Assembly: GCA_964036045.1 (NCBI GenBank)
Contig: OZ038379.1
Coordinates: 118,433,104 to 118,497,103, forward strand
Direction: 5' to 3'
DNA length: 64,000 nt
DNA from: Eutreptiella sp. 'Long Island Sound 2002'
Lineage: Eukaryota; Euglenozoa; Euglenophyceae; Eutreptiales; Eutreptiaceae
Shown here: one piece after another, positions 7,895-44,395 of the stretch
Layout of the letters: each line of letters starts with the position of its first letter
How positions within the stretch are numbered: position 1 is the stretch's first letter
Position numbers and translations under genes: made by a program
Notes under the pieces: model-generated
Told to the model about the DNA's origin: nothing
Database searches by the model: none
What the model saw: the letters and a program-made list of their open reading frames with translations, nothing else

Positions 7895-7904
7895 TTTTTT
7901 GGCG

Positions 7905-10140
7905 ACAGCTTAGTTGACTGAGCGCCCGACTAAGCCGTCACTGAGCCGTCACCGAGCCGGCTCACTTAGCTCTCAATTAGCTCTCACTTAGCTGTCACTG
8001 AGCGCGCCAAATGGCTCACTGAGCGCTCACTGAGAGCTAATTAGGGGCTCACTGAGGGCTCACTCAGGAGTTTCTCCCCCTTTCCGCCCTCTCTTCCCAC
8101 CCTTGCCGGCCCACACTTCACCCTTTTCACACCAACACCGGTCCGCAGTTGTCACCATGTCTTTTCTCCAAGAACTGGAGCGTGCATGCACACATACATA
8201 CTTGCATACATGTACCCACCGCGACAAAGACACCAACATCCAAACACACAATTCGTGAGCGACACAAAAATCCAAACACATACACACACATACACCCATA
8301 CACACGTCCACACACACATGCACATGCACAAATTGACAACCACATTCATTCTTGTGTGCAATTGTCTTGCGTGTACATAAACACATGGCCACATTGAGGC
8401 AGGCGAAGTGAAGGGCTAGAGAGAGATGGTTACGGGTTTGCGATTCGGGATATGAACCTAGCCATTTGCCAGGATGTTCCTTGTTGCCTCATGAAAATGG
8501 CACCCACCCACCCCACACACACACACACACACACACACATGGGCGCGCGCGCCATGAAGCACAAATAGGGCACAGAGGATATTGTTTGCTTTTGTGAGGT
8601 TCACCATACAACCATCTTGACCTACACCATGACACACTGATCCCCATCCCTCCTTAAGCCCTCCGCATGCCGCGTCCCCCCGCTTGCCCCATGCGAACCC
8701 CTTCTCTTATCTTGCCCGTCACGTCTCCTTGCCCTGCCCCTGCCATGCCTTTCCTATTTTCTCGCCATGGCATCAAGTGCATGATGGTGGCGGCAACGAC
8801 GATGGCCTTTGCAGGTATGTTGTGCTATTGTGTGTGTTTGTGTGTGTGTGCGTATGCCCATGCGCATGTGCGCAAGTGTAGATGGTTTGTTCGCCCTTGG
8901 TTTCTCTCATTTAGTGTGTTTGTATGTATGTTCGTGTTTGAGTTGGGGGGGGGGGGGCTTCCTTGGATCGATGCGTGGGTGAAGGTGTCGTTGTGCGTCA
9001 CTATGAGTGTGTGACTGCATTCTTTGGTTTCTGGTTGCCTAGGTTTGTGTGCGTATGGGGATTCGTGAATGTGTGTACGCGCAGGTGTCTGTGTGTGTGT
9101 GTGTGTGCCAATGTGTGTGTGTGTGTGTGTGTGTGTGTTGCAGCTGTTGTTTTGGATGTTGTTGTTGGTTTTGGGGTTGCGTGGCATAGGCTTTGATTGT
9201 GTGCGCATAACATTGTGTTTGTGGCTGCAGATGCAGGTATGGTTGTGTTTGTGGTTGTGGCTATGGTTCGGGGCTTGCGTGCGGTTGTTGCTATGGCCGT
9301 TGTGGTAGGTCTCGTTGTGGGTGTGGTTATGGTAGTGGCTGTGGTTGCGGCTTTGGTTGTGGGTGTGGGTGTGGGTTTGGCTGTGGGTGTGGGTGTGGGT
9401 GTGGGTGTGTTTCTGCAAGCTGTGTTGTGTGTGGATTTGGTTGTGGTTGTGTCAGTGTGTGTGGCCCTGGCGGTGGCGAACGATGCAGTTGCAACTTTCA
9501 CTGTGGCTGCAGCTGTTTTTTGGCTTCTGGCTGTAGCTGTGCGGGGGGGGGGCGGGTTAAAGGACTGCAAAGAGGGGGGGCTCAAATTACCATTCACCCC
9601 CTCCAAAAAAAATCGCATCAAGATTGCAGTGACAGTGTACAGTGACACTGTACAATGACAGTGTACAGGGAGAGCATACATTGAGTGTAGAGTGACAGTG
9701 TAGAGTGCTATTGTAGAGTCTTGGCTGTTGTGGCGGACACACTGTGTGCGGGGACACATTCTATGAGACCTTGGGGAGTACAGTGTACAAAGTACAGTGT
9801 ACAATGTACAGTGTACAATGTACAGTGACAATGTGCAGTGTACAGTTCGCGGTGGCATTGTGCACTGGCAGTGTGCAATGTGCAGTGACAACGTACAGTG
9901 CCAGAGTACAGTGTACCATGTACACTGACAGTAGACAGCGACAGCATTGACAATGTACATGGGCAGTGTACAGTGGCAGTGTACAGTGACGGTGAACCAT
10001 GAGTGAGCCCTCACTGAGCGCTGACAGAGCGCTCGATGAGCACGCGAAACGGCGCAGTGCGCACTCGGTGAGAGCGCCAAACGGCTCAGTGAGCAATCAC
10101 TGGGCGCCTGAACGCTTGCACTGTACGGTGTGCAGTGTGC
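7905..10140 (+). repeat. left arm of the fold-back element
   Basis: In order: tandem GAGCGCTCACTGAGC/AGCTCTCACTTAGC motifs, CA-rich microsatellite, TG-rich and GGGTGTG runs, then GTACAGTGACA motifs. It pairs with 11,530-13,868 in reverse complement. Microsatellite lengths differ between arms, consistent with slippage after the inverted repeat formed. Confidence 0.7.
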
Positions 10141-17229: not shown

Positions 17230-17254
17230 CTTAGGCGTCACAAGTTGCCCACCC
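17230..17254 (+). repeat. left TIR, outer transposon
   Basis: 25 bp beginning CTTAGGCGTCACAAG, perfectly complementary to 30,255-30,279. Similarity to the right end stops immediately after it. Confidence 0.9.
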
Positions 17255-18020
17255 CCCATCTGGCGCTATGGCCCACGGAAGTCCATGTTGTAGTGAGGGG
17301 AAAAGGATGTGAAAAGGGGTGTTATTTTTTGGGTATCCAAACCCCCCTGGTGGCAACATGCAAAAACAAGGTGTGTATTTCAAATATATGCCATTATTTG
17401 CATTTCTGGAAACACACAGATTTTCAAAATAAAGACATTCAATCACCAAAATATAGTGTTGTTTTACATTTAGACCACTGCATTCTAGTGCGGGGGGGGG
17501 GGGGGGGGGCTGCCTATTTTTTCTCTCCCCTTTGTTCCAGGGTGATCACAGAATCCCCCTATACACCACAGATAAAGGAACCCCAAACATACCTTTCATG
17601 GAAGCACACAGAAAACTCTCCCAAAGCATATACTTGTATTTCCTATTTTAACCAACCTGGCTGAAATTTCGGCCAGCTCTTCGAAAAATGTCCAAACACA
17701 TGGTCCTATTTTGCAGAACGGGCCTAAGCTGGCCGAAATTTCGGCCAGGTCCATCGAAGCTCCGAATATGATCACTGAAATGGGTACCTATGACAGTAGA
17801 CATGAGCAAGGAACACAGGAGCAGTGACATTTGAACAGGGTGTGCAACATAATAGACTCAATCACAAGCAAATACTTGCCAACTGACGAAGCGAATCAGA
17901 CTTTTGCAGTGCCTATGGAGAAACACAATAATAAGAGGCTGAAGAGGCTGAGGATTGCATGCTAGCCGAAATTTCGGCCAGACTTCATATTGATACGCAA
18001 TATAAGCAGTAGGACTGGCA
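17255..18020. promoter_or_regulatory. left subterminal region with palindromes at 17,657, 17,729 and 17,962 (outer)
   Basis: About 0.77 kb without a gene. CTGGCCGAAATTTCGGCCAG is perfect at 17,729-17,748 and has one or two changes at 17,657-17,676 and 17,962-17,981. Spacings are 72 and 233 bp. A run of about 19 G near 17,492-17,510 replaces a TG-plus-G run in the inner copy. Possible protein-binding or 3'-untranslated function is inferred. Confidence 0.6.
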
Positions 18021-19074
18021 TTAGCGCTTGCGCAGACTAGATGCACGGGGCTTCTTAGCACCTGTGTTAGCAGGAGGCTTGGCAGGGGTTGCAGCACCAG
18101 GCTTGGCAGTGGCAGAGTTCTGTGACTGTGTGTTTCCACCCTGGGATGGTGAAAAATGATTCACAAAAGCATTCATACTTCTGCCAGTAGGGGCCACACT
18201 GCCTGAGGAGGAAGCTGGGGTGGCCTGAGCGCACTGCGTGCCACTAGGTGAGGGGGCAGGGGCAGTTTTGGGCTTCTTCTTTGGAGTGTGTGTCTCTGAT
18301 TGCGACTCTACCTCCCCGTCTTGCTCCTCAGGATCCTCATCTACATACCTAACGCCAGAACAATCCACAGGAAAACTTGCCCCCAAATCGTGGTACACAT
18401 CCTCCCATGACTTGGGGGGGCACGTGTCCGCGTTGGTGATAGCTCCTCTGATGGACTGAACAAACTCATCAGGCACAACAGTCTCGTCACCCAAAAGGGC
18501 ACACACAACATTACAGTCCTTGGAAAACATGGTAGACATCATGCTTGCAAAATACACAGACAGAGTCCCCATCAAAAACCAGTTGCCTACCCGTCCTGGG
18601 ACCGGAACCAGGCTCAAAAGAAATGAGAATATCTCAACAAGCATCACAGACGACATGGGTCCTTCAGTAAAAGCCACGTAACGGGGCAGCCTGTTATCAA
18701 AGGCAGTGGCAGAACAAATGGAAACCAGATGGGACGTAGAAGTGTACAGCGGGGTCTTGGTTGACAAATTGTAAATTGCAACATCACACTGATACATATC
18801 CTCAGCCACAGTGGCCTTCAAAGCAGCAACAGTGACTTTCACATCAGCAGACTCACCCGCAATGAACACAGGCACACCGGACAAAAGCAGCTGCGCAACC
18901 AGGTTATGCAAACCAGCTGTATAGAGGCGGGGCACCTCAATGACACAAGCAGCAAAGGGCAGTGAACTAATGATACTGGGAACAGGGACTCCACAACGCA
19001 TTGCCAACAGTACCACACGGCGTGACTCTGCAATGAGTTTGCCTGTGCTTGACTCAACGAGGGACTCCCTAGCA
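18021..19074 (-). pseudogene. gene A, 3' part of exon 3 (outer copy), split by the inner transposon
   Basis: 331 residues collinear with the inner copy's C-terminus, ending in the same basic tail (KKPRASSLRKR). Upstream the frame is cut in ARESLVE by the inner insertion at 19,075. The rest of exon 3 resumes at 25,610. Relative to the inner gene it shows scattered substitutions and no internal stop in this part. Confidence 0.85.
19070..19074. repeat. left target-site duplication TAGCA of the inner transposon
   Basis: TAGCA ends the left part of gene A and is repeated at 25,605-25,609. The uninterrupted inner gene has a single CCCTAGCACACTGG at the same codons. Confidence 0.9.
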
Positions 19075-19099
19075 CTTAGGCGTCACAAGTTGCCCACCC

Positions 19100-19863
19100 C
19101 CCACCTGGCGCTATGGCCCACGGAAGTCCATGTTGTAGTGAGGGGAAAAGTATGTGAAAAGGGGTGTTTTTTTTTGGGTATCCAAACCCCCCTGGTGGCA
19201 ACATGCAAAAACAAGGTGTGTATTTCAAATATATGCCATTATTTGCATTTCTGGAAACACACAGATTTTCAAAATAAAGACATTCAATCACCAAAATATA
19301 GTGTTGTTTTACATTTAGACCACTGCATTCCAGTGTGTGTGTGTGTGGGGGGGGCTGCCTATTTTTCTCTCCCCTTTGTTCGAGGTTGATCACAGAACCC
19401 CCCCATACACCACAGATGAGGGAACCCCAAACATACCTTTCATTGAAGCACACATAAAACTATCCCAAAGCATGTACTTGTATTTCCTATTTTAACCAAC
19501 CTGGCCAAAATTTCGGCCAGCTCTTCGAAAAATGTCCAAACACATGGTCCTATTTTGCAGACAGGCCTAAGCTGGCCAAAATTTCGGCCAGGTCCATCAA
19601 AACTCCGAATATGATCACTGAAATGGGTACCTAAGACAGTAGACATGAGCAAGGAACACAGGAGCAGTGACATTTGAACAGGGTGTGCAACATAATATAC
19701 TCAATTACAAGCAAATACTTGCCACCTGACGAATCAAAGCAGACTTTTGCAGTGCCTATGGGGAAACACAATAATAAAAGGCTGAAGAGGCTGAGGACTG
19801 CATGCTGGCCGAAATTTCGGCCAGACTTCATGCTGACAGGCAATATAAGCAGTAGGACTGGCA
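19100..19863. promoter_or_regulatory. left subterminal region with palindromes at 19,501, 19,572 and 19,805 (inner)
   Basis: No gene. Sites at 19,501-19,520 and 19,572-19,591 share one change (CTGGCCAAAATTTCGGCCAG), and 19,805-19,824 is perfect. Spacings are 71 and 233 bp, matching the outer copy's 72 and 233. Confidence 0.6.
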
Positions 19864-22451
19864 TTAGCGCTTGCGCAGACCAGATGCACGGGGCTTCTTA
19901 GCACCTGTGTTAGCAGGAGGCTTGGCAGGGGCTGCAGCACCAGGCTTGGCAGTGGCAGAGTTCTGTGACTGTGTGTTCCCACCCTGGGATGGTGAAAAAT
20001 GATTCACAAAAGTATTCATACCTTTGCCAGTAGGGGCAACAGTGCCTGAGGAGGAAGCTGGGGTGGCCTGAGCGCACTGCGTGCCACTGGGTGAGGGGGC
20101 AGGGGCAGTTTTGGGTTTCTTCTTTGAAGTGTGTGTCTCTGGTTGCGACTCTGCCTCCCCTTCTTGCTCCTCAGGATCCTCATCTACATACCTAACCCCA
20201 GAACAATCCACAGGAAAACCTGCCCCCAAGTCGTGGTACACATCCTCCCATGACTTGGGGGGGCACGTGTCGGCGTTGGTGATACCTGCTCTGATGGACT
20301 GAACAAAGTCATCGGGCACAACAGTCTCGTCACCCAAAAGGGCACACACAACATCACAGTCCTTGGAAAACCTGGTAGACATCATGCTTGCAAAATACAC
20401 AGACAGAGTCCCCAGCAAAAACCAGTTGCCTGCCCGTTCTGGGACCGGAACCAGGCTCAGAAGAAATGAGAATATTTCAACAGGCATCACAGACGAGATG
20501 GGTCCTTCAGTAAAAGCCACGTAACGGGGCAGCCTGTTATCAAAGGCAGTGGCAGAACACATGGAAACCAGATGGGACGTAGAAGTGTACAGCGGGGTCT
20601 TGCTTGACAAATTGTAAAGTGCAACATCACACTGATACATATCCTCAGCAACAGTGGCCTTCAAAGCAGCAACAGTGGCTTTCACATCAGCAGATTCACC
20701 CGCAATGAACACAGGCACACCGGACAAAAGCAGCTGCGCAACCAGGTTATGCCGGCCAGCTGTATAGAGGCGAGGCACCTCAATGACACAAGCAGCAAAG
20801 GGCAGTGAACTAATGATACTGAGAACAGGGACTCCACAACGCATTGCCATCAGTTCCACACGGCCTGACTCTGCAATGAGTTTGCCTGTGCTTGACTCAA
20901 CGAGGGACTCCCTAGCACACTGGATACCGACCACGCCAGTATCAGGTTTTTCACAAACAGGCTTAGCAACAGGCTTCTGCAACAATCCCCGCAACCCCTC
21001 ATATTTGGGTTCCTTCCAAAGAGGGGCCTTAATTACTGCTGACCATGGGGGCCAGGGGTTTTCTTCAGTCCATGTCCAACTGCCATAGCCTACCTTCAGG
21101 TGTGATGCAATAGCGCACTGCCTTTTGGCCATCTCGATAGTACCAAGTGTAGCTGCAGACAGGTGGTAGCACAGGGTGGGCTCCTATTGTGCATTAATTG
21201 AACGACACACAAGGTGGCCGAAATTTCGGCCAGGTGGGTCGATTTATTCGAATACAAACCCCTGTTTGACCAAAACATACCTCTGGTGTTGTTCACAAGC
21301 CCATTGGTAACCGCCTCGGGATGAAGAATGTGCCAGGACCACATATGGGCCTTTTTAACATCTTTTATAATTTTTGTGAGACCAGGTAGGGTACTTTTTG
21401 TCCCATCCATGTAACCTACGATCTCGCGAAGTCGGTCAGGCGTGATGCCTTCCACTTCCTTGAACGTACCCAGTATTGGATGTAATCCACGCTTCTCCGT
21501 GGCTGCCATGGCGCCTACTGCAGCAAGACCCACAAATTTCACCAAACGCCCAACGCCACCCCACCGTTTGGCAACAGCACTCTGCACAGGAGAACATGTG
21601 GAACACAGAAGCTGGCCGAAATTTCGGCCAGGTCAATCGACAAAACCGAATTAATAAACGAAACACACCACAGTGCCTTCCTCGGCAGTAACACCACACT
21701 CTTCAAGCATAACAGTAATGTGATGGTACAAGGTGTACTCATTGGCATCCTCATCCTCAAGCCTATCCAGGAGTAGGGACATTCGCTCCGATGTGGTGGA
21801 TGCTGAGCCAGCAGTGGTCTGGATTTGATGTAAGCCTGCAAGTCGGCGCCTAGTCCGCAGGAGGCAGTCCTGTTTGACTTCATAACCACCAAATACCAGG
21901 GTCCAATCCGGAGTCTCCATATTTTTCATCTCAAATTTGGTCTTGTGTTTTTGGGCAGCAGTGTAAACATGCTGACCCCCCAACAGAACCCAGCGAGTGG
22001 CTGTGCAACGGGAATATTCGTAACAGCAGGGTCGAAAATTCAGACGCGAAAACGGTACCATCGAGAAGAATACCACAACACACATACGAGTGACTTTATA
22101 AAAAAGAAGATCCTGGATGTAATCAACAGGCGGGGCTGCCTTCAGATCGTCGTAGCGGCGTTGCACTTGATCATCCGAAATCCTACGGACCTGCCCAAAT
22201 TTTCGGTCGTGGTCGATAATAATCTCATCCCACCGAACCTTTATTTTCGTCGTTGACGTAACCCAGTCGGATAACTTGATGGAGGATGATGAATTTTTCT
22301 TTGGTGCGGCCTCAGGCTTCTTTTGAAGTCTCTCTGTGCTCGCCTGGTCCTCTTGAGACTGGGATTGCACTTGAGATTGCCCATTGTCTGTTGCAGGCTC
22401 ACCATCTGGCGAAACAGCCATGTCCTGTGATACCCCTCCAGGCTCAGTCAT
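19864..22451 (-). CDS. gene A, three-exon protein of 790 residues (inner copy)
   Basis: Exons 22,451-21,669, 21,581-21,281 and 21,152-19,864 join in frame (783 + 301 + 1,289 nt) across canonical GT-AG introns. The start is ATG at 22,451 (MTEPGG), chosen because the upstream extension enters the palindrome gap. The N-terminus (to about residue 70) is polar and Gln/Ser-rich with a Lys cluster, followed by about 190 residues with WDEIIIDHDRKF and WVLLGGQHVYTAAQ. The middle is hydrophobic. The C-terminus has an acidic patch (DEDPEEQEGE), KKKPKTA, then KKPRASGLRKR, which look like nuclear-localisation signals. No catalytic motif or known domain was recognised. A relative of its C-terminal half is at 63,180-64,000. 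It could be a DNA-binding accessory protein or part of a two-subunit transposase (inference). Confidence 0.75.
21153..21280 (-). other. intron 2 of gene A (inner), 128 bp
   Basis: Donor GAG|GTATGT (exon ends 21,281), acceptor CTGTCTGCAG|CTACACTTGG (exon starts 21,152). Removing it keeps the frame (phase 1). TGGCCGAAATTTCGGCCA lies at 21,215-21,232. In the outer copy the acceptor AG has become AA. Confidence 0.8.
21582..21668 (-). other. intron 1 of gene A (inner), 87 bp
   Basis: Donor ACTGTG|GTGTGTTTCG, acceptor TTCTCCTGTGCAG|AGTGCTGTTG, phase 0. The perfect palindrome occupies 21,612-21,631, nearly a quarter of the intron. In the outer copy a short deletion removes the acceptor. Confidence 0.8.
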
Positions 22452-22815
22452 AAAATAAAGGGCTACAGGGCAACATTTCATGAAGGGGAGAGTTCCCAGA
22501 TAGCAAATAACAAGCACAGATCAACCAAAAAAGGACCAAAACGGACTGCCAGACAGAAAATTCGGATAACCTGGCCGAAATTTCGGCCAGCACTGCTCTG
22601 CATGTCAAACCACTGTGTACAAATACCATTCTGAGAGGCTAGCCAAAATTTCGGCCAGAACCTTAAGTCATTTGTGTTCCGGGGGTAGCCATATGACAAA
22701 ACAACAAGTCTGGCCGAAAAACCTTGAAACAGCAAATAGACACACCAAAATCACTGGCAATGCGTGGCAGAACCCATACCACAGTGACAAACACAGCTGC
22801 AAACAGAAATCAGTC
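22452..22815. promoter_or_regulatory. gap between genes B and A with three spaced palindromes (inner)
   Basis: Sites start at 22,571 (perfect), 22,639 (two changes) and 22,710 (only the left half CTGGCCGAAA remains), spaced 68 and 71 bp. They lie 120-280 bp upstream of gene A's ATG, the likely promoter position. The outer copy has matching sites at 27,247, 27,315 and 27,386. Confidence 0.6.
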
Positions 22816-25027
22816 CTAGTCCTGGGTATCCACACCGATGTGTTCCGCCTCATCTAGGGCTTCAAAGGAGGCAACGCTGTCTGCATCACAATCAATGTCC
22901 TGGTCACTATCACAACGGTCGACAGCAATGGAATCATCAGGGGCGTGGGGGGGGGGTACTGGGCGGGGGGGGGGGGGCGCGGGGGGGTACTGGGGGGCCT
23001 CTGGCTCGGGGCTTCAGGGGTGGCTTAGGGGGCAAGGCAATTCCACCAGGAGCAGCAACAGCAGCAGCAGGCGGTGCACGGTTGGCAGCGCGAATAGAAG
23101 CATGTGCAGTACGCAACACCCCTTGCTCGGCAGCAGTGCGAGCAGGTGCATTTGTCTTTAAAAAATCCTCAACACCCTCAGGAACCCTGGTACGCGCAAC
23201 CAGATTTTGCATTGCATGCAACAGAACCACTTTTAAACGGTCTGTGGTGATTCGTGTCCTAGACATGGTACCGGGGAACGTCAAATCCTCAACTGCATCC
23301 AGTCTTCTCACCTCAACTTTATAGTCTGGAACGGGAACACAAATGGGCAGGCTCTGTGTATGGGCTGTCAAGATGAATTGTTTAAGATTGGCAGAGAACA
23401 TTGCCACGGATCTCTCAGTGAGCACACCACGCAAAACTTTCTCTCCCGGTTGGACAGGGGGAGGTGTCAGAAATAAATCAGACGACTGTTGGACACTAGT
23501 ACAAGCAGTGTTGCGGCGACAGTGGGCTGAGAACCGACTCAGAAGTGCCTCACCCAGCTCCTCAGAGTGGATACACCCTAGGGAGGCGGAATGCCACTGA
23601 CTCCAAAACAAAAGACCAACAGCGGTGGTTTTCACATACTCCGTGGTTAACTGTTCCTCGGGCTTTAGGATGTTCAGCATGAGCAGTAGGGACATCTCAA
23701 GTGCCTGCTTAGCTACAATACCGGAACCTGCCCCCCGTCCCTCCCAGTTGCACTCACGAACCAAAGTCCCGATGCTGAAAGCAGCTGGACAGTATGTGTA
23801 CAGCAAAGCCTTAAGGGCTAATAACATACACAAACCCTTGCGCTGAATGGGTGTCAAGTCCCGCTGGCTATTGAGCAGGGAAGTGACGCGCTCATTTAGT
23901 CTGCCTCTATTGGACGATGTGGCTAGCATGAGTCCAAGCAACGTCTTCTCCATATAGATGACCTTGACCTTGCGAGGGAGGATAGACCCAACCTGAAGGC
24001 TGTTCCCCTGCTCCAAAAACTTAATGAACGGCAGGAACGCCCCGTAGATCAATTCAACGCAATACTTATAGCTATGCCATACTCCGTACACCAAAGGAAA
24101 ACCCAACAGTAATTGTGGTACATTCCAGGGAACATAAGCATCACCATAACACAGCTTAAGTAGGGCAAAGTGTATTTTCATGTCCACAAGCAGCGGAATA
24201 CAGTGTCTGGTGCGGTGTTCCACACATGACAAATCAACCACGAGTTGCAAAAGCTCTTTGTGTGTGCCGGAGCGGAGCTCAGAGAGGAAAAAGGGTCTCC
24301 AGTTGAGGGAACGAACATTTTTCCTGGCAATATCCAAAGGAGGGCGAACCCAAACTCTCTGAATACCTTGGTTGGCAACATCAATACGATCAAACAATGC
24401 TCTATGTGAGCGAAAGATGTCATCAGCAACCTTTGGTACCCTGGCCTCAATTTCGACCAGCTCCGGCAGACCCCGGTATGCAGGTAGGGTAGCAATGTGC
24501 AAAACAGCAACAGCTGTACAGTTTAGGGTTAAGTCGGGTGAATGGGGATCAGCTCCCGACCTGTAACGCCTCAGGTTATCAAACCATATACAAACTTGCC
24601 TACGGTGCATGGTGTTCCACAAGTTGTGTGCTGCTAGTCCAGCATGATGGTGAATGGACTCCTGCTTAGTGTTACACTGACCAAGGACTCCTACCTTACG
24701 GCGTTGGCGGCAGGACATAATACCCCAGTTGTAACCAGACCCACAGTTAGAGTATGGGAGGGCCATACGGCGCAGCAGGCGGTATAGGGCATGGAACTGT
24801 GACAAAAATGTCATGTACCATCGTGGGGGCTTCTTCTCAGTGGCGGCAGCCTTCAACTGTGTCAAGGAGTGCCTGCTCCTGCGATTCTTCCGCAACAAGA
24901 GGCAAAATTGCAAAAGCTTTTGCAGAGTCCCACCACGTAATGCGTTTCGCAACAGCCCTTTGGCTGTAGTAGCAAAAGCACCAGTAACTGCAGCATGTAC
25001 AACATTGACAGTAATAGCAGAAGACAT
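22816..25027 (-). CDS. gene B, candidate transposase of about 700 residues (inner copy)
   Basis: Open from ATG 25,027 for 696 residues. Early in the protein is a basic Arg/Lys region (RKNRRSRH). Then come IWFDNLRRYR (about residue 155), NCTAVAVLH, PPLDIARKNV, LLVDMKIHF (about 285), GVWHSYKYC (about 320) and KVIYMEKTL (about 360). The Asp, Asp and Glu of FDN, LVD and YMEK are spaced like a DDE nuclease triad, which is inference only. The C-terminus is Pro-rich. The frame ends at 22,937, but an acidic tail (DADSVASFEALDEAE) follows one frame away and stops at 22,816. A one-base change in the long C runs would join them, so the true length may be about 735. Relatives lie at 455-968, 2,960-3,316 and 60,119-62,216. 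Confidence 0.65.
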
Positions 25028-25579
25028 TAATGCTGAGACAAGAAAACAGTTATGTAGGAGCGTATGGTGTAATACTCATGAACAACGACAATTGCAAGCT
25101 GGCCGAAATTTCGGCCAGGTGTGTTCAAAGGGGAAATAATTGCTTAAATGTTCAAAAATAGCAAAAGCTGGCCAAAAATTCGGCCAGACCGCCCAAAAAC
25201 CAGAATATAAGTGCTTGAATAGTGAACAGACCAAAAAGCTGGCCGAAATTTCGGCGAGCCCTAAGAAAAATGAAAAAAACTATGCCTATTCACCAGGAAA
25301 CCAAAAAGCTGGCCGAAATTTTGGCTAGAAGGGTCAAAAACTGCATACACACATAGTTGTTTGCAATGTTACCCAAAACTTGGCCGAAATTTCGGCCAGC
25401 TTCAGAAAAACGTCAAATACAACGCACTAGAAGACGGGGATACACAAGGCTAACACATCAACACGTATTTCAACGGGTGTCACACAGCTCTGCCAACAAC
25501 TTTGGTCACATACGTCAAATAACATACTCAAAGTAGAAATGTAGAATATTGTCAAATCGCGCATATACGGGGTCCTAGA
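25028..25579. promoter_or_regulatory. right subterminal array of five palindromes with about 70-bp period (inner)
   Basis: Sites start at 25,099, 25,168, 25,239, 25,309 and 25,380 (steps 69, 71, 70, 71). The first is perfect, the others carry one or two changes. They lie between gene B's start and the right TIR. The regular step suggests sites on a similar DNA face for a multimeric protein, controlling gene B or assembling the transposition complex (inference). Confidence 0.7.
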
Positions 25580-25604
25580 GGCTGGGCAACTTGTGACGCC
25601 TAAG
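25580..25604 (-). repeat. right TIR, inner transposon
   Basis: Complement begins CTTAGGCGTCACAAGTTGCC. It differs from the left TIR at one of 25 positions. Followed by TAGCA (25,605-25,609). Confidence 0.9.
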
Positions 25605-27127
25605 TAGCACACTGAATCTGACCTGACCAGTATCAGGTTTTTCACAAACAGGCTTAGCAACAGGCTTCTGCAACAATCCCCGCAACCCCTCATATTTGGG
25701 TTCCTTCCAAAGAGGGGCCTTAATTACTGCTGACCACGGTGGCCAGGGGTTTTCTTCATTCCAGGTCCAGCTGCCATAGGCTACCTTCAGGTGTGATGCA
25801 ATAGCGCACTGCCTTTTGGCCATCTCGATAGTACCAAGTCTAGTTGCAGACAGGTGGTGTCAGAGGGTGGGCTCCTATTGTGCATTAATTGAACGACACA
25901 CAAGCTGGCCAAAATTTCGGCCAGGTCGGTCGATTTATTCGAATACAAACCCCTGTTTGACCAAAACATACCTCTGGTGTTGTTCACAAGCCCATTGGTA
26001 ACCGCCTCGGGATGAAGAATGTGCCAGGACCACATGTGGGCCTTTTTAACATCTTTTATAATTTTTTTGAGACCAGGTAGGGTACTTTTTGACCCATCCA
26101 TGTAACCTACGATGTCGCGAAGTCGGTCAGGCGTGATGGCTTCCACTTCCTTGAACGTACCTAGTGTTGGATGTAATCCACGCTTCTCCATGGCTGCCAT
26201 GGCGTCTACTGCAGCAAGACCCACAAATTTCACCAAACGCCCAACGCCACCCCACCGTTTGGCAACAGAACATGTGGAACACAGAAGCTGGCCGAAATTT
26301 CGGCCAGGTCAATCGACAAAACCGAATTAATAAACGAAACACACCACAGTGCCTTCCTCGGCAGTAACACCACAGTCTTCAAGCATAATAGTAATGTGAT
26401 GGTACAAGGTGTACTCATTGGCATCCTCATCCTCAAGCCTATCTAGGAGTAGGGACATTCGCTCCGATGTGGTGGATGCTGAGGCAGCAGTGGTCTGGAT
26501 TTCATGTAAGCCTACAACCCGGCGCCGAGTCCGCAGGGGGCAGTCCTGTTTGACTTCATAACCACCAAATACCAGGGTCCAATCCGGAGTCTCCATATTT
26601 TTCATCTCAAATTCCGTCTTGTGTTTTTGGGCAGCAGTGTAAACATGCTGAGCCCCCAACAGAACCCAGCGAGTGGCTGTGCAACAGGAATATTCGAAAC
26701 AGCAGGGTCGAAAATTCAAACGCGAAAACGGTACTATCGAGAAAAATACCACAACACACATACGAGTGACTTTATAAAAAAGAAGATCCTGGATGTAATC
26801 CACAGGCGGGGCCGCCTTCAAATCGTCGTAGCGGCGGTGCACGCGATCATCCGAAATCCTACGGACCTGCCCAAATTTTCGGTCGTGGTCGATAATAATC
26901 TCATCCCACCGAACCTTTATTTTCGTCGTTGACGTAACCCAGTCGGATAACTTGATGGAGGATGTTGAATTTTTCTTTGGTGCGGCCTTAGGCTTCTTCT
27001 GAAGTCCCTCTGTGCTCGCCTGGTCCTCTTGAGACTGGGATTGCACTTGAGATTGCCCATTGTCTGTTGCAGGCTCACCATCTGGCGAAACAGCCATGTC
27101 CTGTGATACCTCTCCAGGCTCAGTCAT
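25605..27127 (-). pseudogene. gene A, exons 1, 2 and 5' part of exon 3 (outer copy), splice sites lost
   Basis: Exon 1 is 27,127-26,345 (783 nt, intact). Exon 2 runs to 25,972 with its donor intact, but a short deletion near 26,270 removed the intron-1 acceptor CAG. The intron-2 acceptor reads CTGTCTGCAA instead of CTGTCTGCAG near 25,846. Exon 3 then runs to the inner transposon at 25,605-25,609. Palindromes remain in both former introns (25,905-25,924 and 26,288-26,307). With these changes and the insertion this gene cannot make the full protein. Confidence 0.8.
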
Positions 27128-27497
27128 TAAATAAAGGGCTACAGGGCAACATTTCATGAAGGGGAGAGTTCCCAGATAGCAAATAACAAGCACACATAAA
27201 CCAAAAAAGGACCAAAACGGACTGCCAGACAGGAAAATCGGATAACCTGGCCGAAATTTCGGCCAGTACTGCTCTGCATGTCAAACCACTGTGTACAAAT
27301 ACCATTCTGAGAGGCTGGCCGGAGGTTCAGTTAGAACCTGATGTCATTTGTGTTCTGGGGGTAGCCATATGACAAAACAACAAGTCTGGCTGGAATTTCG
27401 GCCACAAAAACATGACACCGCAAATAGACACACCAAAATCACTTGCAATGCCTGGCAGAACCCATACCACAGTGACAAACATAGCTGCAAACAGAAA
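27128..27497. promoter_or_regulatory. gap between genes B and A with palindromes (outer)
   Basis: Perfect palindrome at 27,247-27,266, then degenerate versions starting at 27,315 and 27,386, in the same 68- and 71-bp steps as the inner copy. The third site is better preserved here (CTGGCTGGAATTTCGGCCAC) than in the inner copy. Confidence 0.55.
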
Positions 27498-29707
27498 TCA
27501 GTCCCAGTCCTGGGTATCCACACCGATGTGTTCCGCCTCATCTAGGGCTTCAAAGGAGGCAACACTGTCTGCATCACAATCAAAATCCCGGTCACTATCA
27601 CAAGAGTCGACGGCAAAGGAATCATCAGGGGCGGGTGGGGTACTGGGCAAGGGGGGGGGGGCTGGGGGGGTTACTGGGGGGCCTCTGGCTGGGGGCTTTG
27701 GGGGTGGCTTTGGGGGCAAGGCAATTCCACCAGGAGCAGCAGCAGGACAGCAGGCGGTGCACGGTTGGCAGCGCGGATAGAAGCATGTGCAGTACGCAAC
27801 ACCCCTTGCTGGGCAGCAGTGCGGGCAGGTGCATTTGTCTGTAAAAAATCCTCAACACCCTCAGGAACCCTGGTACGCGCAACCAGATTTTGCATTGCAT
27901 GCAACAGAACCACTTTTAAACGGTCTGTGGTGATTCGTGTCCTAGACATGGTACCGGGGAACGTCAAATCCTCAACTGCATCCAGTTTTCTCACCTCAAC
28001 TTTATAGTCCGGAACGGGAACACAAATGGGCGGGCTCTGTGTATGGGCTGTCAAGATGAATGGTTTAAGATTGGTAGAGAACATTGCCACGGATCTCTCA
28101 ATCAGCACACCACGCAAAAATTTCTCTCCAGGTTGGATAGGGGGAAGTGTCAGAAATAAATCAGACGACTGTTGGACATTGGTACAGGCAGTGTTGCGGC
28201 GACAGTGGGCTGAGAACCGACTCAGAAGTGCCTCACTCAGCTCCTCAGAGTGGATACACCCTAGGGAGGCGGAATGCCACTAACTCCAAAACAAAAGAGC
28301 AGCAGCAGTGGTTTTCATATACTCCGTGGCTAACTGCTCCTCGGGCTTTAGGATGTTGAGCATGAGCAGTAGGGACATCTCAAGTTCTTGCTTAGCTACA
28401 ATCTCGGAACCTGCCCCCCGTCCCTCCCAGTTGCACTCACGAACCAAAGTCCCAATGCTGAAAGCAGCTGGACAGCATGTGTACCGCAAAGCCTTAAGGG
28501 CTAATAACATACGCAAACCCTTGCGCTGAATGGGTGTCAAGTCCCGCTGGCTATTGAGCAGGGTAGTGACGCGCTCATCTAGTCCGCCTCTATTGCACGA
28601 TGTGGCTAGCATGAGTCCAAGCAACGTCTTCTCCATATGGATGACCTTGACCTTGCGAGGGAGGATAGACCCAACCTGAAGGTTGTTCCCCTGCTCCAAA
28701 AACTTAATGAACGGCAGGAACGCCCTGTAGATCAATTCAACGCAATACTTATAGCTATGCCATACTCCGTACACCAAAGGAAAACCAAACAGTAATTGTG
28801 GTACATTCCACGGAACATAAGCAGCACCATAACACAGCTTAAGTAGGGCAAAGTGTATTTTCATGTCCACAGACAGCGGAACACAGTGTCTGGTGCGGTG
28901 TTCCAAACATGACAAATCAACCACGAGTTGCAAAAGCTCTTTGTGTGTGCCGGAGCGGAGCTTAGAGAGGAAAAACGGTCTACAGTTGAGGGAACGAACA
29001 TTTTTTTTGGTAATATCCAAAGGAGCACGAACCCAAACTCTCTGAATACCTTGGTTGGCAACATCAATACGATCAAACAATGCTCTATGTGAGCGAAAGA
29101 TGTCATTTGCAACCTTTGGTACCCTGGCCTCAATTTCGACCAGCTCCGGCAGACCCCGGTATGCAGGTAGGGTAGCAGTATGCAAAACAGCAACAACTGT
29201 ACAGTTTAGGGTTAAGTCGGGTGAATGGGGATCAGCTCCCAACCTGTAACGCCTCAGGTTATCAAACCATATACAAACTTGCCTACGGTGCATGGTGTTC
29301 CACAAGTTGTGTGCTGCTAGTCCAGCACGATGGTGAATGGACTCCTGCTTAGTGTTACAATGACCAAGGACTCCTACCTTACGGCGTTGGCGGCAGGACA
29401 TAATATCCCAGTTGTAATCAGACCCACAGTTAGAGTATGGGAGGGCCATACGACGCAGCAGGCAGTATAGGGCATGGAACTGTGACAAAAATGTCATGTA
29501 CCATCGTGGGGGCTTCTTCTCAGTGGCGGCAGCCTTCAACTGTGTCAGGGAGTGCCGGCTCCTGCGATTCTTCCGCAACAAGAGGCAGAATTGCAAAAGC
29601 TTTTGCAGAGTCCCACCACGGAATGAGTTTCGCAACAGCCCTTTGGCTATAGTAGCAGCACCAGTAACTGCAGCATGTACAACGTTGACGGTAATAGCAG
29701 AAGACAT
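27498..29707 (-). pseudogene. gene B (outer copy) with a nonsense codon and frameshifts
   Basis: Collinear with the inner gene B from ATG 29,707. At 28,280-28,282 the inner TGG AGT CAG TGG has become TGG AGT TAG TGG, stopping the protein after about 475 residues. The remainder (28,117 to 27,671) is still readable, followed by a frame change near 27,720 before a Pro-rich and acidic tail ending QDWD at 27,498. Most substitutions are scattered, and the FDN, GVWHSYKYC and MEK motifs are intact. Confidence 0.8.
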
Positions 29708-30254
29708 TGATGCTGACACAAGAAAACAGTTATGTAGGAGTGTATGGTGTAATACTCATGAACAACGACAATTGCAAGCTGGCCGAAATTTCGGCTAGGT
29801 GTGTTCCAAGGGGAAATAATTGCTTAAATGTTCAAAAATAGCAAAAGCTGGCCGAAAATTCGGCCAGACCGCCCAAAAACCAGAATATAAGTGCTTGAAT
29901 AGTGAACAGACCAAAAAGCTGGCCGAAATTTCGGCCAGCCCTAAGAAAAATAAAAATAACCATGCCTATTCACCAGGAAACCAAAAAGCTGGCCGAAATT
30001 TCGGCCAGAAGGGTCAAAAACCGCATATACACATAGTTGTTTGCAATGTTACCCAAAAGCTGGCCGAAATTTCGGCCAGCTTCAGAAAAACGTCAAATAC
30101 AACACAAGACGGGGATACACAAGGCTAACCCATCAACACGTATTTCAACGGGTGTCACACAGCTTTGCCAACAACTTTGGTCACATATGTCAAATAGCAT
30201 ACTCAAAGTAGAAATGTAGAACATTGTCACATCGCGCGTATACGGGGTCCTAGA
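29708..30254. promoter_or_regulatory. right subterminal array of five palindromes with about 70-bp period (outer)
   Basis: Sites start at 29,779, 29,848, 29,919, 29,989 and 30,060, with steps 69, 71, 70, 71, identical to the inner copy. The last three are perfect, so this older copy keeps better sites here than the inner one. Confidence 0.7.
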
Positions 30255-30284
30255 GGGTGGGCAACTTGTGACGCCTAAGTTCCA
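30255..30284 (-). repeat. right TIR and TTCCA duplication, outer transposon
   Basis: TIR 30,255-30,279, the complement of the left 25 bp, followed by TTCCA at 30,280-30,284 and then TGGCGAGGCATGAAAATTTG, which matches copy B at about 43,824. Confidence 0.9.
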
Positions 30285-31672: not shown

Positions 31673-31818
31673 TAGGTAAAAGAATTGCAAGAACTGCAAG
31701 GGATCAACACCTATGTGTACCAACGAGACGTGCCGCCCCACGACTATCAACGTATCCTGTGCTCGGTCCGGGGAAGATGTTGTGTTCTACACCACCTTTA
31801 ACTGCTAATAGTAAAAAA
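31672..31818 (+). pseudogene. displaced 3' part of the zinc-knuckle-like gene
   Basis: Plus-strand reading ELQGINTYVYQRDVPPHDYQ continues the protein that is intact in copy B (40,982 to about 40,570, minus strand). It keeps a Gln codon where copy B has a stop (CAA against TAA). It ends near a palindrome CTTTAACTGCTAATAGTAAA (from 31,796), probably intronic. Its 5' part is stranded at 14,059-14,370. Confidence 0.4.
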
Positions 31819-32368
31819 GAGTTCGGAGTGATGGTTGGCACACGGTTAACATCTGCACACCCTGGTGTATCGGCCATAAGGTGTCTTATGTCCTTCGGCA
31901 CTAAAAGCATAGCGAAGCGTTTGATCGCGGACAACCGCTTGTGGAGTTGGGGACTACGGGAGCGAGCAATGGCAATCTAGAGATCGTAACGCCTCAACCG
32001 GAAGGCAAAGGATTCGATGAAGGCCACATTCTAGACCCAGGCAGCACACAAGGGATTGAGGAAGAGTCTTGCAGCATACATGACCGCTGAAGGTACTTTG
32101 AGCGGCGATGCTACGCAGGATGTAGTGCTCGAGGTGGTGGCGAACAACAAGATGCCACCACTGTGACACTAGAAGGACATGACGGGAACGGTGAATGCAG
32201 CCCACTTGGTGTACATTGAGCTTGGGCATGGACACGATCAGTGTGGTTCCGGGGGGTAAGTTGGTGGCTGATGGGACGCATTGCGTTGTGTGTGGAACCA
32301 ATACAAGGGAGTAGGCACCATCCGTGCAAGAGAAGCGACCTCTACTAGCAAATTAGTAGAAGATCTAG

Positions 32369-33330
32369 ATGGCGGTGCACAGCATAAAGGGAAACAGACA
32401 TGGATGCCAAGAAGAGTCGGAATGTGTCCACATGCACTGTGCTGTACATGGTGTGGTTGCGGCCCAACATGTTTATCGTGCATCCGCCATACATGGTTGT
32501 GAATTACGCATCGTGCGCCTCCATTTTCCGACGGTTGTACCAATTGGTGGTCGCATTGATGAATGTGCTAGTTGATCCAGCACGGCCCATGCTATTGGTG
32601 TTTCCCGCAACCTGCCGCTGTACGCGGCGGAATTTGAATATTGTGTCAATCCTTTTGGTGTTTCTGTGCGGTGAACCATCCGTTTTTGGGATTGCACCGG
32701 CTTGCCACCTAAAGGAATGCAGAAGGTGCCCTTGGCAGAGGTGACAACCACACAGAATGCACTGCCTCCGGACTTCGAAGGGGAGTTGCCGTTACTCGCA
32801 AACGCGACACCGGTGACACCAGCCGCGTCAAGCTCCCTAGGCAAGTGCATTGAGGAGACCGCCAAACACGCAAACAAAATAGATAAGCAGGTGATGAAGC
32901 AGGAGGCCAAGCAGGAGGCAAAGCAGCACGCTGCCATGGCCGACAATACGCCAAAGGCAGCCGGGAAGAGGGGTGTTAATGGCACTACATGGTCTCTTCA
33001 CTCCCCGGGTCCTCCACTTACTTGTGGTCTCTAAATCAGCAGCACATTGGGAGGCATTGGCAGACGGCTTGGCTGAGGGGCTTGCCTTGGATTCCGACGC
33101 CTTGCTGTAGGGAGCAATCTCAGTAGCAAGCCCAGTAGTAGGGCAAACAGGGGAAAGAGCTCTCCATTAGGCGTATCAGTTGCGATGATGCACTCGTTCG
33201 AGAGGATTCACAGATGGGCCCGCCCACGCTCTCCACCACTTCCAGCTTTGCAGGCGCGAAGATCGCTACGGCACAAGACATGCAAAATTTTTTCGAGAAG
33301 AGTTGGGGTAATGGGAAGAAGAACTAGTCC
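32369..33330 (+). pseudogene. gene-A-like protein remnant (block S, copy A)
   Basis: Pieces in several frames: HCAVHGVVAAQHVYRAS then NLPLYAAEFEYCV (32,369-32,640), MPPKGMQKVPLAEVTT with a repeated KQEAKQEAKQHA helix (32,702-33,034), and a final MQNFFEKSWGNGKKN before a stop. Order and landmarks (CGV...., then KTPLY in gene A against NLPLY here, and a basic C-terminus) suggest a distant gene-A relative. Stops and frameshifts, or unrecognised introns, separate the parts. Similarity is by eye and weak. Confidence 0.3.
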
Positions 33331-33747
33331 CACTGACTGCTCGATGGTGGTGTTTCACTATTGGCAGCACCCCCCCCCCCCCCGAGGATACTGGTTGCTT
33401 GTCAATGTGATGGGGTTGTGCCCTTGGTGTGGGGCGAACTCCTCTTGTACTCCCGTTTGTGGTGATTTTTTGTGTTCGGATTCACATTCACATGTGTGTT
33501 CTACAGCTGGCGGGTGTCCACCAATGGATCGTAGCTACATACTGTTTTGTATTCTTATGTGGTGGCTTGTTGTGTGCCTTGTATTGCATCTGGTGAGAGG
33601 CTTGTCTTGGGAATCGCACGTCGTTGTTGTACACATGTCAACCCTCGTCTATGTTGCTCCGGTGAACTCGAGACCCAATGTCCCCCAAAGTAGGCGCATT
33701 GAAGGTGCGGTGTTTGTGTTCAAAGTCTTCGGGTGCCGTCGTAATGT

Positions 33748-34920: not shown

Positions 34921-37880
34921 CACACTGTGTCATGCACACTGCACACTGCAAACTGTGCATTGCAAATTGCACACTGCACGTTGTAATGCACACTGCACAA
35001 TGTGTATTGCACACTGCAAAGTGAACACTATGTATTGCATAGTGCACAGTGCATACTGTGTATTGCACACTGCACACTGTGTGTTATAAATTGCACACTG
35101 TACCCTGTGTAATACACTTTGCACACTGTCTGCACAGTGTGTATTCCTCACTGCAAACTGCACACTGTGTATTGCACACTGCACACTGCACAATGTGTGT
35201 TACCAATTGCACACTGCACACTGCAATGCACACTGCACACTGTGTAATACACTCTGCGCACTGTCTGCACACTGTGTATTGCACAATGCACACTGCACAT
35301 TATGAATTGCACACTGCACACTGCACACTGTGTGTAGTGTGCACCACACAGGGTGTAGTATGCCGTGTGTGATGTAATCCACACTGCACACTGTGTAATG
35401 CACACTACACATTGTGTCATGCACACTACACGCTGCACCTTGTGTATTGCACATTGGGTATTGCACAGTGCACCGGGTGCAGTGTGCAATACCCAGTGTG
35501 CATTACACAGGGTGCGATGTGTAGTGTGCAATACACAGTGTGCAGTGTGCAGTACAGTGTGCAGTGTGCAATTTGTAATGCACAGTGTGCAGTGTGCAAT
35601 ACACAGTGTGCAGTGTGCATTACAGTGTGCAGTGTGCAATACACGATGTGCAGTGTGCAGTGTGCAGTACACAGTGTGCGATGCGCGTTGTACACTGCAC
35701 ACTGCACACTTTGTAATGCACACTGCACACTGTGTCATGCACACTGCACACCGTACAGTGCAAGCGTTCGGGCGCTCAATGAGCGCTCACTAAGCGCCCA
35801 CTGAAGGCGCCAAATGGCTCAGTGAGCGCTTAGTGAGGGGTCACTCATGGTTCACTGTCACTGTACACTGTCCATGCACACTGTCCATGTACACTGTCTA
35901 CTGTCACTGTACATGGTACAGTGTATTCTGGCACTGTACATTGTCACTGCGTACTGCACACTTTGCATTGTACACTGTCACTATACACTGTCACCGTACA
36001 TTGTCACTGTACACTGTACACTGTACACCGTACTCCCCAAGGTCTCATAGAATGTATCCCTGCACGCAGCGCGTCCGCCACGACGGCCAAGACTCTACAA
36101 TAGCACTCTACACTGTCACTCTACACTCAATGTATGCTCTCACCGTACACTGTCATTGTACGTTGTCACTGTACACTGTCACTGTAAACTTGGTGCGATT
36201 TTTTTTTGGAAGGGGTGGTTGGTAATTTGAGCTCCCCCTCTTTGCAGTCCTTTAACCCACCTCCCCCCCCCCGCACAGCTACAGCCAGAAGCCAAAAAAC
36301 GGCTGCGGCCACAGTGAAAGCTGCAACTGCAGCCTTCGCCACAGCCTGGGCTACACACACTGACACAACCACAACCAAATCCACACGCAACACAACTTGC
36401 AGAAACACACCCACACCCACACCCACACCCACACCCACACCCACACCCACAACCAAAGCCGCAACCATAGCCACTACCACAACTACACCCACAACGAGAG
36501 CTACCACAACGGCCATAGCAACAACCGCACGCAAGCCCAGAACCATAGCCACAACCACAACCACAACCATACCTGCCTCTGCAGCCACAAACACAATGTT
36601 ATGCGCACTCAATCAAAGCCTATGCCACGCAACACCAAAACCAACAACAACATCCAAAACAACAGCTGCAACACACACACACACACACACACACACTTGC
36701 GCGTACACACATTCATGAATCCACATACACACACGAACCTAGGTAACCAGAAACCAAAGAATGCAGTCACACACTCACAAAGACCCACGCAAAAAGATAC
36801 CTTCACCCATGCATCGATCCATGCAATCCCCCCCCCCCCCGATTCACACACAAACACACATACAAACACACTAAATGAGAAAAACCAAGAACGAACAAAT
36901 CATCTACACTGGCGCACATGCACATTGGCACAACTACACACGAACACAAGCACGCACACACCCACCCACACACATAATAGCACAACATACCTGCAAAGGT
37001 CATCCTCCTTTCCACCACCATCATGCATGTGATGCCACGGCCAAAAAATAGGAAAGGCCGGACAAGGGGACGGGGGAGGCAAGATAAAAGAAGGGCTACG
37101 CACGAGGGAAGCGGAAGGACATAGCATAGCAAAAGGGGAGGGGAGGGGATAAGGAGGGAGAGGGATCAATGTGTCATAGTGTAGGTCAAGATGGTTGTAT
37201 GATGAACCTCACAAAAGCGAGCAATGTCCTTTGTGCCCTACTTGTGCTTCATGGGGTGTGTGTGTGCAGTGGGTGGGTGCAATTTTCATGAGGCAGCAAC
37301 GAACACCCTCGCAAATGGCTAGGTTCATATCCATACACACGTCCACACACACATGCACATACACAAATTGACAACCACATTCATTCTTGTGTGCACTTAT
37401 GTTGCATGTACATAAACACATGGCCACATTGAACCATGCGAAGTGAAGGGCTAGGGAGAGATGGTTACGGGTGTGGGGTTCGGGTGTATGTGTGTGTATG
37501 TGTTTGCATATTTGTGTCGCTCACAAAGTGTGTGCTTGGATGTTTGTGTGTTTATCGCAGTGGGTACATGTATGCAAGTATGTATGTGTGCATGCACGCT
37601 CCAGTTCTTGAAGAAAAGACATGGTGACCATTGCGGACCGATGTTGCTGTGAAAAGGGTGAAGTGTGGGCCGGCAAGGGTGGGAAGAGAGGGCGGAACGG
37701 GGGAGAAACTCCTGAGTGAGCCCTCAAAGAGCCCGTAATTAGCTCTCAGTGAGCGCTCAGTGAGCCATTTGGCGCGCTCAGGGACAGCTAAGTGAGAGCT
37801 AACTGAGAGCTAAGTGAGCCGGCTCAGTGACGGCAGTGGTGATGGCTCAGTCGGGCGCTCAGTCAACTGAGCCGTCGCCA
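34921..37880 (+). mobile_element. single-arm second copy of the fold-back element
   Basis: Matches 10,655-13,868 directly: TGCACACTG array, GAGCGCTCACTGAGC units, GTACACTGTCAC motifs, polyC, a shorter CCCACA tract, CA repeats, and the GCTCAGTCAACTGAGC end. The left arm is absent, so it cannot fold as the first copy does. The array core carries internal deletions. Confidence 0.7.
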
Positions 37881-38335: not shown

Positions 38336-38631
38336 TGGCGCCCAGTCAACTGAGCCGTCGAAGAACCCCCCCCCCCAGGTCGAATCCTGATGGACTAGGG
38401 ATTGGGATCCCTTTGGGGACATTCCAAAACCCCAACCCACCCCCGACAACCGCAAGTTTTGACATGAAACCCCTTGAAAAACACCAGTTAGCCCAAAATG
38501 AGCCGTTTTAGCCCCAAGTGAGCCCCAACTTCACATTTTGGAGTGAGCCGCAGGTATAATCTCGTTTGAGTGCTAGCAGCAAAAATCTTGCGCCATGGGG
38601 CGGTAGCAAGAACCTGCTAAAATGAAGACAC

Positions 38632-43078: not shown

Positions 43079-43429
43079 CCCCCTCCGCCTTCTTCTCCTG
43101 CCGCTTCAGTTTTGGGGCGGGGACAGACTTTGACTTACGGGGGGGGGGTGTCCTCGCCGGAGCACGACGAAGAGGAAGAGACGGGGTTCTCGGACTCGTC
43201 CGAGAATGCGACTATGGGTGTCCAAAACAACTATTTTGTCCGAAAAAGGCCCTTTTCAATGGGTTGTAACGGAGGATATGGTTTCAAAAATTCTAGAAAA
43301 AACAAAATACAGATCCCTGCGCGAAAAAAACACCCCCTTTCCACACACTGGGTGGCCATGGTGGCCGTTTAATGCACTATTCGTATTGTGCCGCTCGCCT
43401 GTGTCTGCTGCGACCCTTGCGAATGCGAA

Positions 43430-43450
43430 TTCGGGCCAAATTCGCCCGAG
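43430..43450. repeat. TTCG-type palindrome (P3), copy B
   Basis: GCGAATTCGGGCCAAATTCGC-like inverted repeat, one base different from copy A's 16,831-16,851. Located between KDZ-like exons. Confidence 0.45.
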
Positions 43451-43543
43451 CTTCGCACGAAGTTGGCCCGATTTTCGCGTACGGGGATGCACATCTTCAC
43501 CATACCAAAGCAAGGCCTCTTTGCCATGAACCGTCCAAACGTG

Positions 43544-44102
43544 CTATGCTCGCCGCTGTTTGCGGCGTCTGAAACGTTGACTAAGGGTATGTACATAGTT
43601 GAGGTCACTAAGGGCCCTCTTGCGGGCCCGCCTAGCCAATTGTTGTACGGTCAACGGGCCTTGCCCACGCATGGACCTCTTTGTGACGTCCCACACCTCC
43701 GCACGGAGGCTGTCGTCTATAGTGTGGTTGTCAACGACAACCTGCACACCTAGGGCCCATAGAGAAGGCTGACACCCCCGCTGTTGCGCAACATGAGCTT
43801 TAGCCTACGGTGGCTGCCTTCGATGGCGAAGCATGAAAATTTGGAGAGGGTTCTCCATTGGCGGGCAAGAAAAGTACAACTGGTCAATCCACAAGTGTGA
43901 CCACAACAGCTTAGGCCATTCCAAGAGTAAGTGGGCTTTGCCCATCGCTATACTACACTCACATAACCTTCCTAGATCCGCCTCGGACAGCCAAGATGTC
44001 CGCCATGCATATATACACATCTTGGCAAAATTGTCCCACTGCCTACAAACATCCCCCCATGGTCTCCCCCCCATGGGGTGCAACCAAGGAAGGGTGGCCT
44101 AG
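43544..44102 (-). pseudogene. KDZ-like transposase C-terminal exons; empty site of the outer transposon (copy B)
   Basis: Minus-strand reading: FAKMCIYAWRTSWLS, ECSIAMGKAHLLLEWPKLLW, then FLARQWRTLSKFSCFAIEGS, HRRLKLMLRNSGG and, after a frameshift, VVVDNHTIDDSLRAEVWD. Glu-Gly-Ser-His followed by Arg-Leu-Lys and Arg-Asn-Ser is a hallmark I associate with KDZ-like C-termini. The unbroken CTGCCTTCGATGGCG here is the pre-insertion site of the 13-kb insertion in copy A. Confidence 0.5.
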
Positions 44103-44186
44103 GAACCCCCCTCCAAATGACACGGTAGTGCACCGCTAAAGTAACGGACCACACTTATGGGGGGTGTTTTTGGGGGTCAAAAAAAG

Positions 44187-44395
44187 CGTATAGGAACTAT
44201 CAAGACCCCGGTGTCGAACCAAGGGAGTGAACTTTTTTCGGGCAGGAACCCCCCTAGGAACCCCTTCCTAGACCCTTCCTTCACCCTTCCTGGACCCCTT
44301 CCTGGTAGGAACCCCCCTTCCTACACCCTTCCTAGACCCCTTCCTAGCCAGGAACCCCCCCCTTCCTGGCCAGGAACCCCCCTTCTTATGGCCCT
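44187..44395 (+). repeat. AGGAACCCC/CCTTCCTAGACC array (copy B)
   Basis: Counterpart of 30,651-30,842. Begins TATAGGAACTATCAAGACCC. The inverted array is at about 45,135-45,270. Confidence 0.5.

Follow-up and report, generated by a model that had tools for sequence, protein, structure and literature searches.

A high-copy two-gene transposon of Eutreptiella with a copy inserted in itself and a repeated 20-bp palindrome

The stretch of 64,000 nucleotides analysed here, called the window, comes from Eutreptiella sp. 'Long Island Sound 2002' (assembly GCA_964036045.1, contig OZ038379.1, positions 118,433,104 to 118,497,103 of the forward strand) and contains a two-gene DNA transposon that is interrupted by a second copy of itself. 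The 25-bp terminal inverted repeat (TIR) of this element, CTTAGGCGTCACAAGTTGCCCACCC, has four matches in the window at up to 3 mismatches, at 17230-17254 and 19075-19099 on the plus strand and at 25580-25604 and 30255-30279 on the minus strand, and none in 100 shuffles. The outer pair delimits the outer copy (17230..30279, minus strand), which is flanked by the target duplication TTCCA, while the inner pair, whose right member (25580-25604) has 1 mismatch, delimits an inner copy of 6530 bp (19075..25604, minus strand), which is flanked by TAGCA. An earlier note, made from the sequence alone, had described the TIRs and the 5-bp duplications around both copies, and the matches in the window and the reading of the flanks confirm them. 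The outer copy without its insert measures 4675 + 1845 bp, and the two copies are 94.8-95.2% identical. The inner copy lies within outer gene A, as the note had it, and the exon that it splits is the last coding exon, which becomes exon 4 and not exon 3 because gene A has a further in-frame intron of 87 nt (22087-22001). The two genes share a strand, also as described; this is the minus strand, and their order is corrected to B followed by A. The uninterrupted target of the outer insertion, placed by the note near 43,820, was recovered as well: the joined outer flanks (400 bp from each side, 800 bp) align end to end with 43424..44225 on the plus strand, at 96.8% identity with 2 gaps, which indicates that this target survives in a paralogous repeat. 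The empty site carries TTCGA, one base off the outer duplication.

Exact TIRs are found 449 times per strand in the 2.28-Gb genome, against 0 for the reversed control. Duplications were read for all 35 pairs of plus and minus TIRs less than 7 kb apart among the first 100 listed places of the 449 + 449, and each of the 35 copies has a perfect 5-bp duplication, 34 of which differ in sequence, so the further host copies that the earlier note had suggested seeking exist with the same TIR and duplication length. Exact TIRs were the selection criterion, and older copies are therefore under-represented in the sample; copies with different ends, which the note had named as counter-evidence, were not found, a point that was tested only through the separate second family described below, as the 35 copies were chosen by having the same ends. 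Nineteen of the sampled copies are near full length (6360-6603 bp) and the remaining 16 have internal deletions. The 19 together with the inner copy (n = 20) have a median identity of 0.968, with a range of 0.844-0.990. The places listed also include 3 wider TIR pairs (9.9-13.5 kb), one of which was read on both flanks and has CCCCA on each side, and 24 of the 100 places have no partner within 14 kb, of which the short loci L007 and L008 were retrieved. Inverted ends in many copies and a duplication of fixed length are features of TIR cut-and-paste elements, and a two-gene transposon of this type, with high copy number, 5-bp duplications and a self-insertion, is supported. At the 35 target sites (L009-L043), both strands being counted, A or T stands at the ends of the duplication in 58 of 70 counts, and C is found just outside the duplication on each strand, with 39 of 70 at position -2.

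Gene B of the inner copy (22813..25027, minus strand), which is supported by the open reading frame (ORF) at 22937-25075, by homologs and by a fold match, encodes a putative DDE transposase. Its frame is lost near 22940, at a place read as falling in a run of C, and gene B of the outer copy has an in-frame stop at 28280-28282. A fold comparison assigns the predicted product, weakly, to the DDE transposases with an RNase H-like fold, a broad class, and the nearest structure is the P element transposase, followed by Hermes and Transib; searching PDB and BFVD with the model in Foldseek yielded nothing at E<=0.001. The proposed triad is D150-D282-E489 in the numbering of protein P0001, with a predicted helical insertion preceding the last E, and the N-terminal ~145 residues of the model are mostly of low confidence. 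Pfam gave no THAP or hAT match for gene B at E <= 1 or for five relatives at E <= 10, a search that a very diverged domain could escape. Relatives P0019, P0020, P0076 and P0105 are present on contigs of 1.5-3.1 kb. Viral contigs were searched for relatives of B, for relatives of gene A exon 1 and for exact copies of the palindrome described below, and none of these turned up.

Gene A of the inner copy, also on the minus strand, has four exons, which were placed by alignment of copies and by comparison with the second family. Exon 1 (22088..22451), which has a homologous stretch in family 2, contains the start of a region that resembles ParB and sulfiredoxin (Srx), and exon 2 (21669..22000) contains the motif GGQHVYTAA; they are separated by intron 1 (22001..22087), an in-frame GT-AG intron of 87 nt that has no palindrome. 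Intron 2 (21582..21668, 87 nt) has one palindrome and is followed by exon 3 (21281..21581), by intron 3 (21153..21280, 128 nt), whose single palindrome is also present in the same intron of the family-2 copy L051, and by exon 4 (19864..21152). A model with three exons is fully open in 4 of 20 aligned copies (the inner copy, L011, L019 and L024), and its first exon includes an 87-nt stretch, GTATGT..CACAG, that is in frame in family 1. This stretch is read as a further intron because its counterpart in L051 is unalignable and contains a stop, with conserved protein on either side. The spliced product has 761 residues.

Over the stretches that align, the N-terminal part of the gene A product shares 54 and 44% identity with two copies of family 2, and its motifs GGQHVYTAA and RWDEIIIDHDRxxGQVR recall the ParB/sulfiredoxin superfamily, a likeness that was set down ahead of all tests. 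A profile built from three sequences gave 7 matches in PDB, 6 of which are sulfiredoxin, aligned over the motif with E-values of 0.17-0.33, which are not significant; as all six represent a single protein in different versions, and given these E-values, the matches are a lead and not proof. The spliced sequence has no Pfam match and no significant ParB match, and none of the 7996 scored candidates was a homolog of the full query, in which the in-frame intron was retained. The structure predicted for the N-terminal part, from two near-identical sequences with the intron translated, was uninterpretable. Matches of one outer gene A ORF to HTH_47 (E 0.1) and HTH_49 (E 0.16) were too weak and were not used.

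The element also contains a perfect 20-bp palindrome, CTGGCCGAAATTTCGGCCAG, which is absent from the earlier note. It has 26 matches in the window at up to 3 mismatches, all within the element, against 0 expected, and when perfect palindromes of this length are counted in the window whatever their sequence, 10 of 11 are inside the element. Alignment of 20 copies shows 13 noncoding sites, which all have one identical majority 20-mer, and 168 of the 253 instances are perfect. Five sites form the 5' array (25099..25399 in the inner copy, with starts 69-71 bp apart), three are intergenic, one is found in each of two gene A introns (21612..21631 in intron 2 and 21214..21233 in intron 3) and three form the 3' group (19501..19824, with starts at 19501, 19572 and 19805 and spacings of 233 and 71 bp). 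Two of the intergenic sites lie between B and A at 22571..22658, 68 bp apart, and the remaining one, at a further 71 bp towards gene B, has decayed in the inner copy and is perfect in 15 of 19 copies. The only coding palindrome seen is an imperfect one inside the gene B frame (24441..24460), with 2 mismatches in the majority sequence. A candidate in gene A intron 1 was rejected, since its best match has 8 mismatches, a value reached by 770 of 20000 shuffles. Exact copies of CTGGCCGAAATTTCGGCCAG number 6168 in the genome, with 0 for the control. Eleven of them are gathered within 2.9 kb at G000:C1:15670312-15673187, in a layout unlike that of the standard element, and this cluster is perhaps a non-autonomous or rearranged relative.

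Palindrome columns vary among family-1 copies like other noncoding columns (0.023 vs 0.022), and such a lack of extra constraint is expected because insertions decay neutrally. The spacers of the 5' array share 33-51%, compared with 28-33% after shuffling, so this array may have arisen by tandem duplication, with identity surviving in the palindrome alone. Both observations would suit a passive tandem satellite without function, an explanation that is nevertheless very improbable, as only 20 bp are identical over 13 sites that are scattered, with two different introns holding one each, and as the dyad is kept in families 2 and 3 while its sequence differs.

For family 2, protein P0016 is found in the same genome at 100%, with 79 matching stretches (74 candidates scored of 7358). 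Its gene B is 42-48% identical to that of family 1, and gene A and the 5-bp duplications are kept. The family-2 TIR, CTTAGGCCACGCTAACTACCCGCCCC, is present in copies L049 and L050 with 0-4 mismatches, and these are flanked by AAATG and TGGTA, both perfect duplications of 5 bp; for L051 no right end was found. L049, a derivative of 2.6 kb, has at its 3' end hardly more than the TIR, and blastn finds no DNA similarity between it and the inner copy. The family-2 palindrome, CTGGGCGAAATTTCGCCCAG, is changed on both arms relative to family 1: positions 5/16 are C/G in 250 of 253 family-1 sites, and in the 21 sites of family 2 they are G/C in 11, G/T in 5, A/C in 4 and A/T in 1. Perfect sites number only two among these 21 and belong to L051, and several near-end sites have the variant half CTTCCAG, which faces inward at both ends. 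The layout is kept: adjacent sites are spaced by 69-70 bp, two sites lie between the genes, one falls in the last intron and two are near the 3' end; the first palindrome lies 205-207 bp from the end, compared with 206 in family 1, and the 5' array has one gap of 111-115 bp. In L050 (4227-4786) a stretch of gene A of ~560 bp is inverted relative to L051.

In family 3, protein P0108 has 29% identity to P0001 and is found in the same genome at 100%, where scoring of 119 out of 6110 candidates gave 119 matching stretches, many of them in open frames of 734 codons. The 801 bp read upstream of one copy contain three perfect copies of another palindrome, CTGGGCTCTGCAGAGCCCAG, which are 128 and 70 bp apart, and 2000 shuffles gave 0 perfect palindromes. 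Exact copies of CTGGGCTCTGCAGAGCCCAG number 1439 genome-wide, with 0 for the control. Among the sites listed, which are on contig C1, many lie around matches to gene B of family 3, at 29.06, 46.51, 46.84 and 51.07 Mb, nine neighbouring pairs are 69-70 bp apart, and some clusters are without a listed gene B match. A TIR candidate in L052, from position 109, is unconfirmed. The half-sites of all three palindromes start with CTGG.

These features are best accounted for, with some reserve, by an undescribed cut-and-paste group with at least three diverged families in this genome, in which B is the transposase and a dimeric protein of the element, most likely the product of A, occupies the palindromes. 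Gene B, as an RNase H-like DDE enzyme (D150-D282-E489), would cut at the 25-26-bp TIRs and join these ends to staggered target strands, which would give the 5-bp duplications. Gene A would provide a second protein with a ParB/sulfiredoxin-like N-terminal domain, whose dimer would bind the 20-bp palindromes, and the arrays near both ends, with about 70 bp from site to site, may bring the ends together or keep the element in a nucleoprotein complex. Accessory sites in other two-gene elements have a comparable role. En/Spm (CACTA) likewise has two genes, TnpA-TnpD, and an accessory protein that binds repeated subterminal sites. It differs in duplication length, ends and proteins, and the sites described here are 20-bp perfect dyads that extend into introns. 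A dyad that is kept while its letters differ is the trace expected of a co-evolving dimer. The product of A is preferred to that of B as the binding protein because introns and intergenic parts also hold sites, and because the pairing of palindromes with a domain that resembles ParB/Srx brings the ParB-parS system to mind. A ParB-like plus methyltransferase protein is reported in the algal transposon Sola1-1_Ec32 of Ectocarpus (PMC12477816). What the present element has in common with such systems is a motif resembling ParB/Srx together with palindromic sites; it differs in that Pfam scans of gene A found no methyltransferase family, that A and B share a strand and that the ParB match is not significant. 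A bolder proposal, which is only tentative, is a new eukaryotic superfamily that couples a DDE transposase to a ParB-like clamp loaded at parS-like palindromes, with which it would co-evolve, each family marking and gathering its own DNA and avoiding cross-mobilisation of its relatives in the same genome.

The palindromes could alternatively be bound by the transposase B itself or by a dimeric host factor, with gene A as an accessory in, for example, replication, repair or anti-silencing. P elements have internal transposase binding sites (PMC7776569), and the low-confidence N-terminal region of B leaves room for a DNA-binding domain, whereas sites in introns and between genes exceed the needs of end recognition and a host factor would not easily account for a palindrome that differs in each of the three families of this genome; this alternative is rather unlikely. 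Less probable still is that the palindromes act as RNA hairpins, with a stem of 7-8 bp and a short loop, for example in splicing, export or silencing of the transcripts. Sites in introns and untranslated parts, and arms that differ together between families as in a stem, would agree with hairpins. Against them, hairpins do not require 13 identical sites, the sites at 206-347 bp from the end are probably upstream of the transcript, and a dimer on DNA is the better match for perfect 20-bp dyads at intervals of about 70 bp.

As regards classification, the earlier note had held that the encoded proteins and the TIR fit no known superfamily, and this view is supported. Searches of Pfam (with the ORFs and spliced gene A), NCBIfam (with three proteins) and PDB sequences gave nothing at curated cut-off or significant E-value for either protein, and none of the three placed gene B in a named superfamily, the outcome that the note had given as refuting. 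Weak profile rows were mostly unrelated (Tht1, CcdA, P3A, DUF2201_N, DUF6767, complement inhibitors and a photosystem subunit). A literature search, with most subscription journals outside its reach, recognised no description of the element. The element is unassigned within Pfam, NCBIfam, PDB and the literature searched, and it probably belongs to an undescribed group, perhaps of superfamily rank.

It is possible, although doubtful, that the element is instead a divergent lineage of a known superfamily such as P, hAT with short duplications or Transib/CMC. This is suggested by the order of the fold matches and by the existence of hAT lineages with 5-bp and CMCT elements with 2-5-bp duplications (PMC12730594). 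No Pfam match to P, hAT or Transib/CMC was found, and P element, Zisupton and CMCT each disagree with the element in at least one tested feature. P elements give 8-bp duplications (PMC7776569), compared with 5 bp in 35 of 35 copies here, and have a THAP domain, which Pfam scans, able to miss a very diverged one, did not find here; the second gene A and the palindrome arrays set the element apart. Zisupton (KDZ) likewise has an 8-bp duplication (PMC12730594). In hAT the duplication is 8 bp, with 5-7 in subgroups, so that 5 bp would fit only the hAT5 subgroup (PMC12730594). Pfam detects no hAT domain here, and the ends and the two-gene layout differ from those generally known for hAT elements, Hermes and hAT5 included. 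A C/DxxH signature between the second D and the last E characterises hAT, P, MuDR, Kolobok and Dada (PMC9587614), while gene B, inspected by eye, has an invariant H318 in GVWH, with G three residues earlier. The CMCT clade (EnSpm, Mirage, Chapaev and Transib) has mostly 5'-CA..TG-3' termini and, between the second D and the last E, C(2)C and H(3-4)H motifs (PMC12730594), whereas the ends here are CTTAGG..CCTAAG and, by eye, neither motif occurs between residues 282 and 489 of P0001.

A separate group would lengthen by one lineage the short list of superfamilies known among eukaryotic DNA transposons. The coexistence in one genome of three families, in which the dyad and the ~70-bp spacing are kept and the sequence differs, offers a natural experiment on protein-DNA co-evolution and on the insulation of families. 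A ParB/Srx-like protein beside a eukaryotic transposase, if confirmed, would extend ParB-like DNA marking beyond bacterial partition, into the mobile DNA of eukaryotes.

Other repeats are present in the window. A ~2-kb inverted repeat at 31674-33662 and 38654-40645, with arms 96-98% complementary and about 5 kb apart, is an unrelated duplicated unit. Microsatellite-rich blocks at 7445-9806 and 36005-38343 are inverted and 26-31 kb apart, and their listed pieces are 88-99% complementary. From 50112 to about 57000 there is a long tandem array with a unit of ~41 bp, matched by 266 overlapping registers of one 300-bp reference, which has a strong G and A skew on the plus strand.

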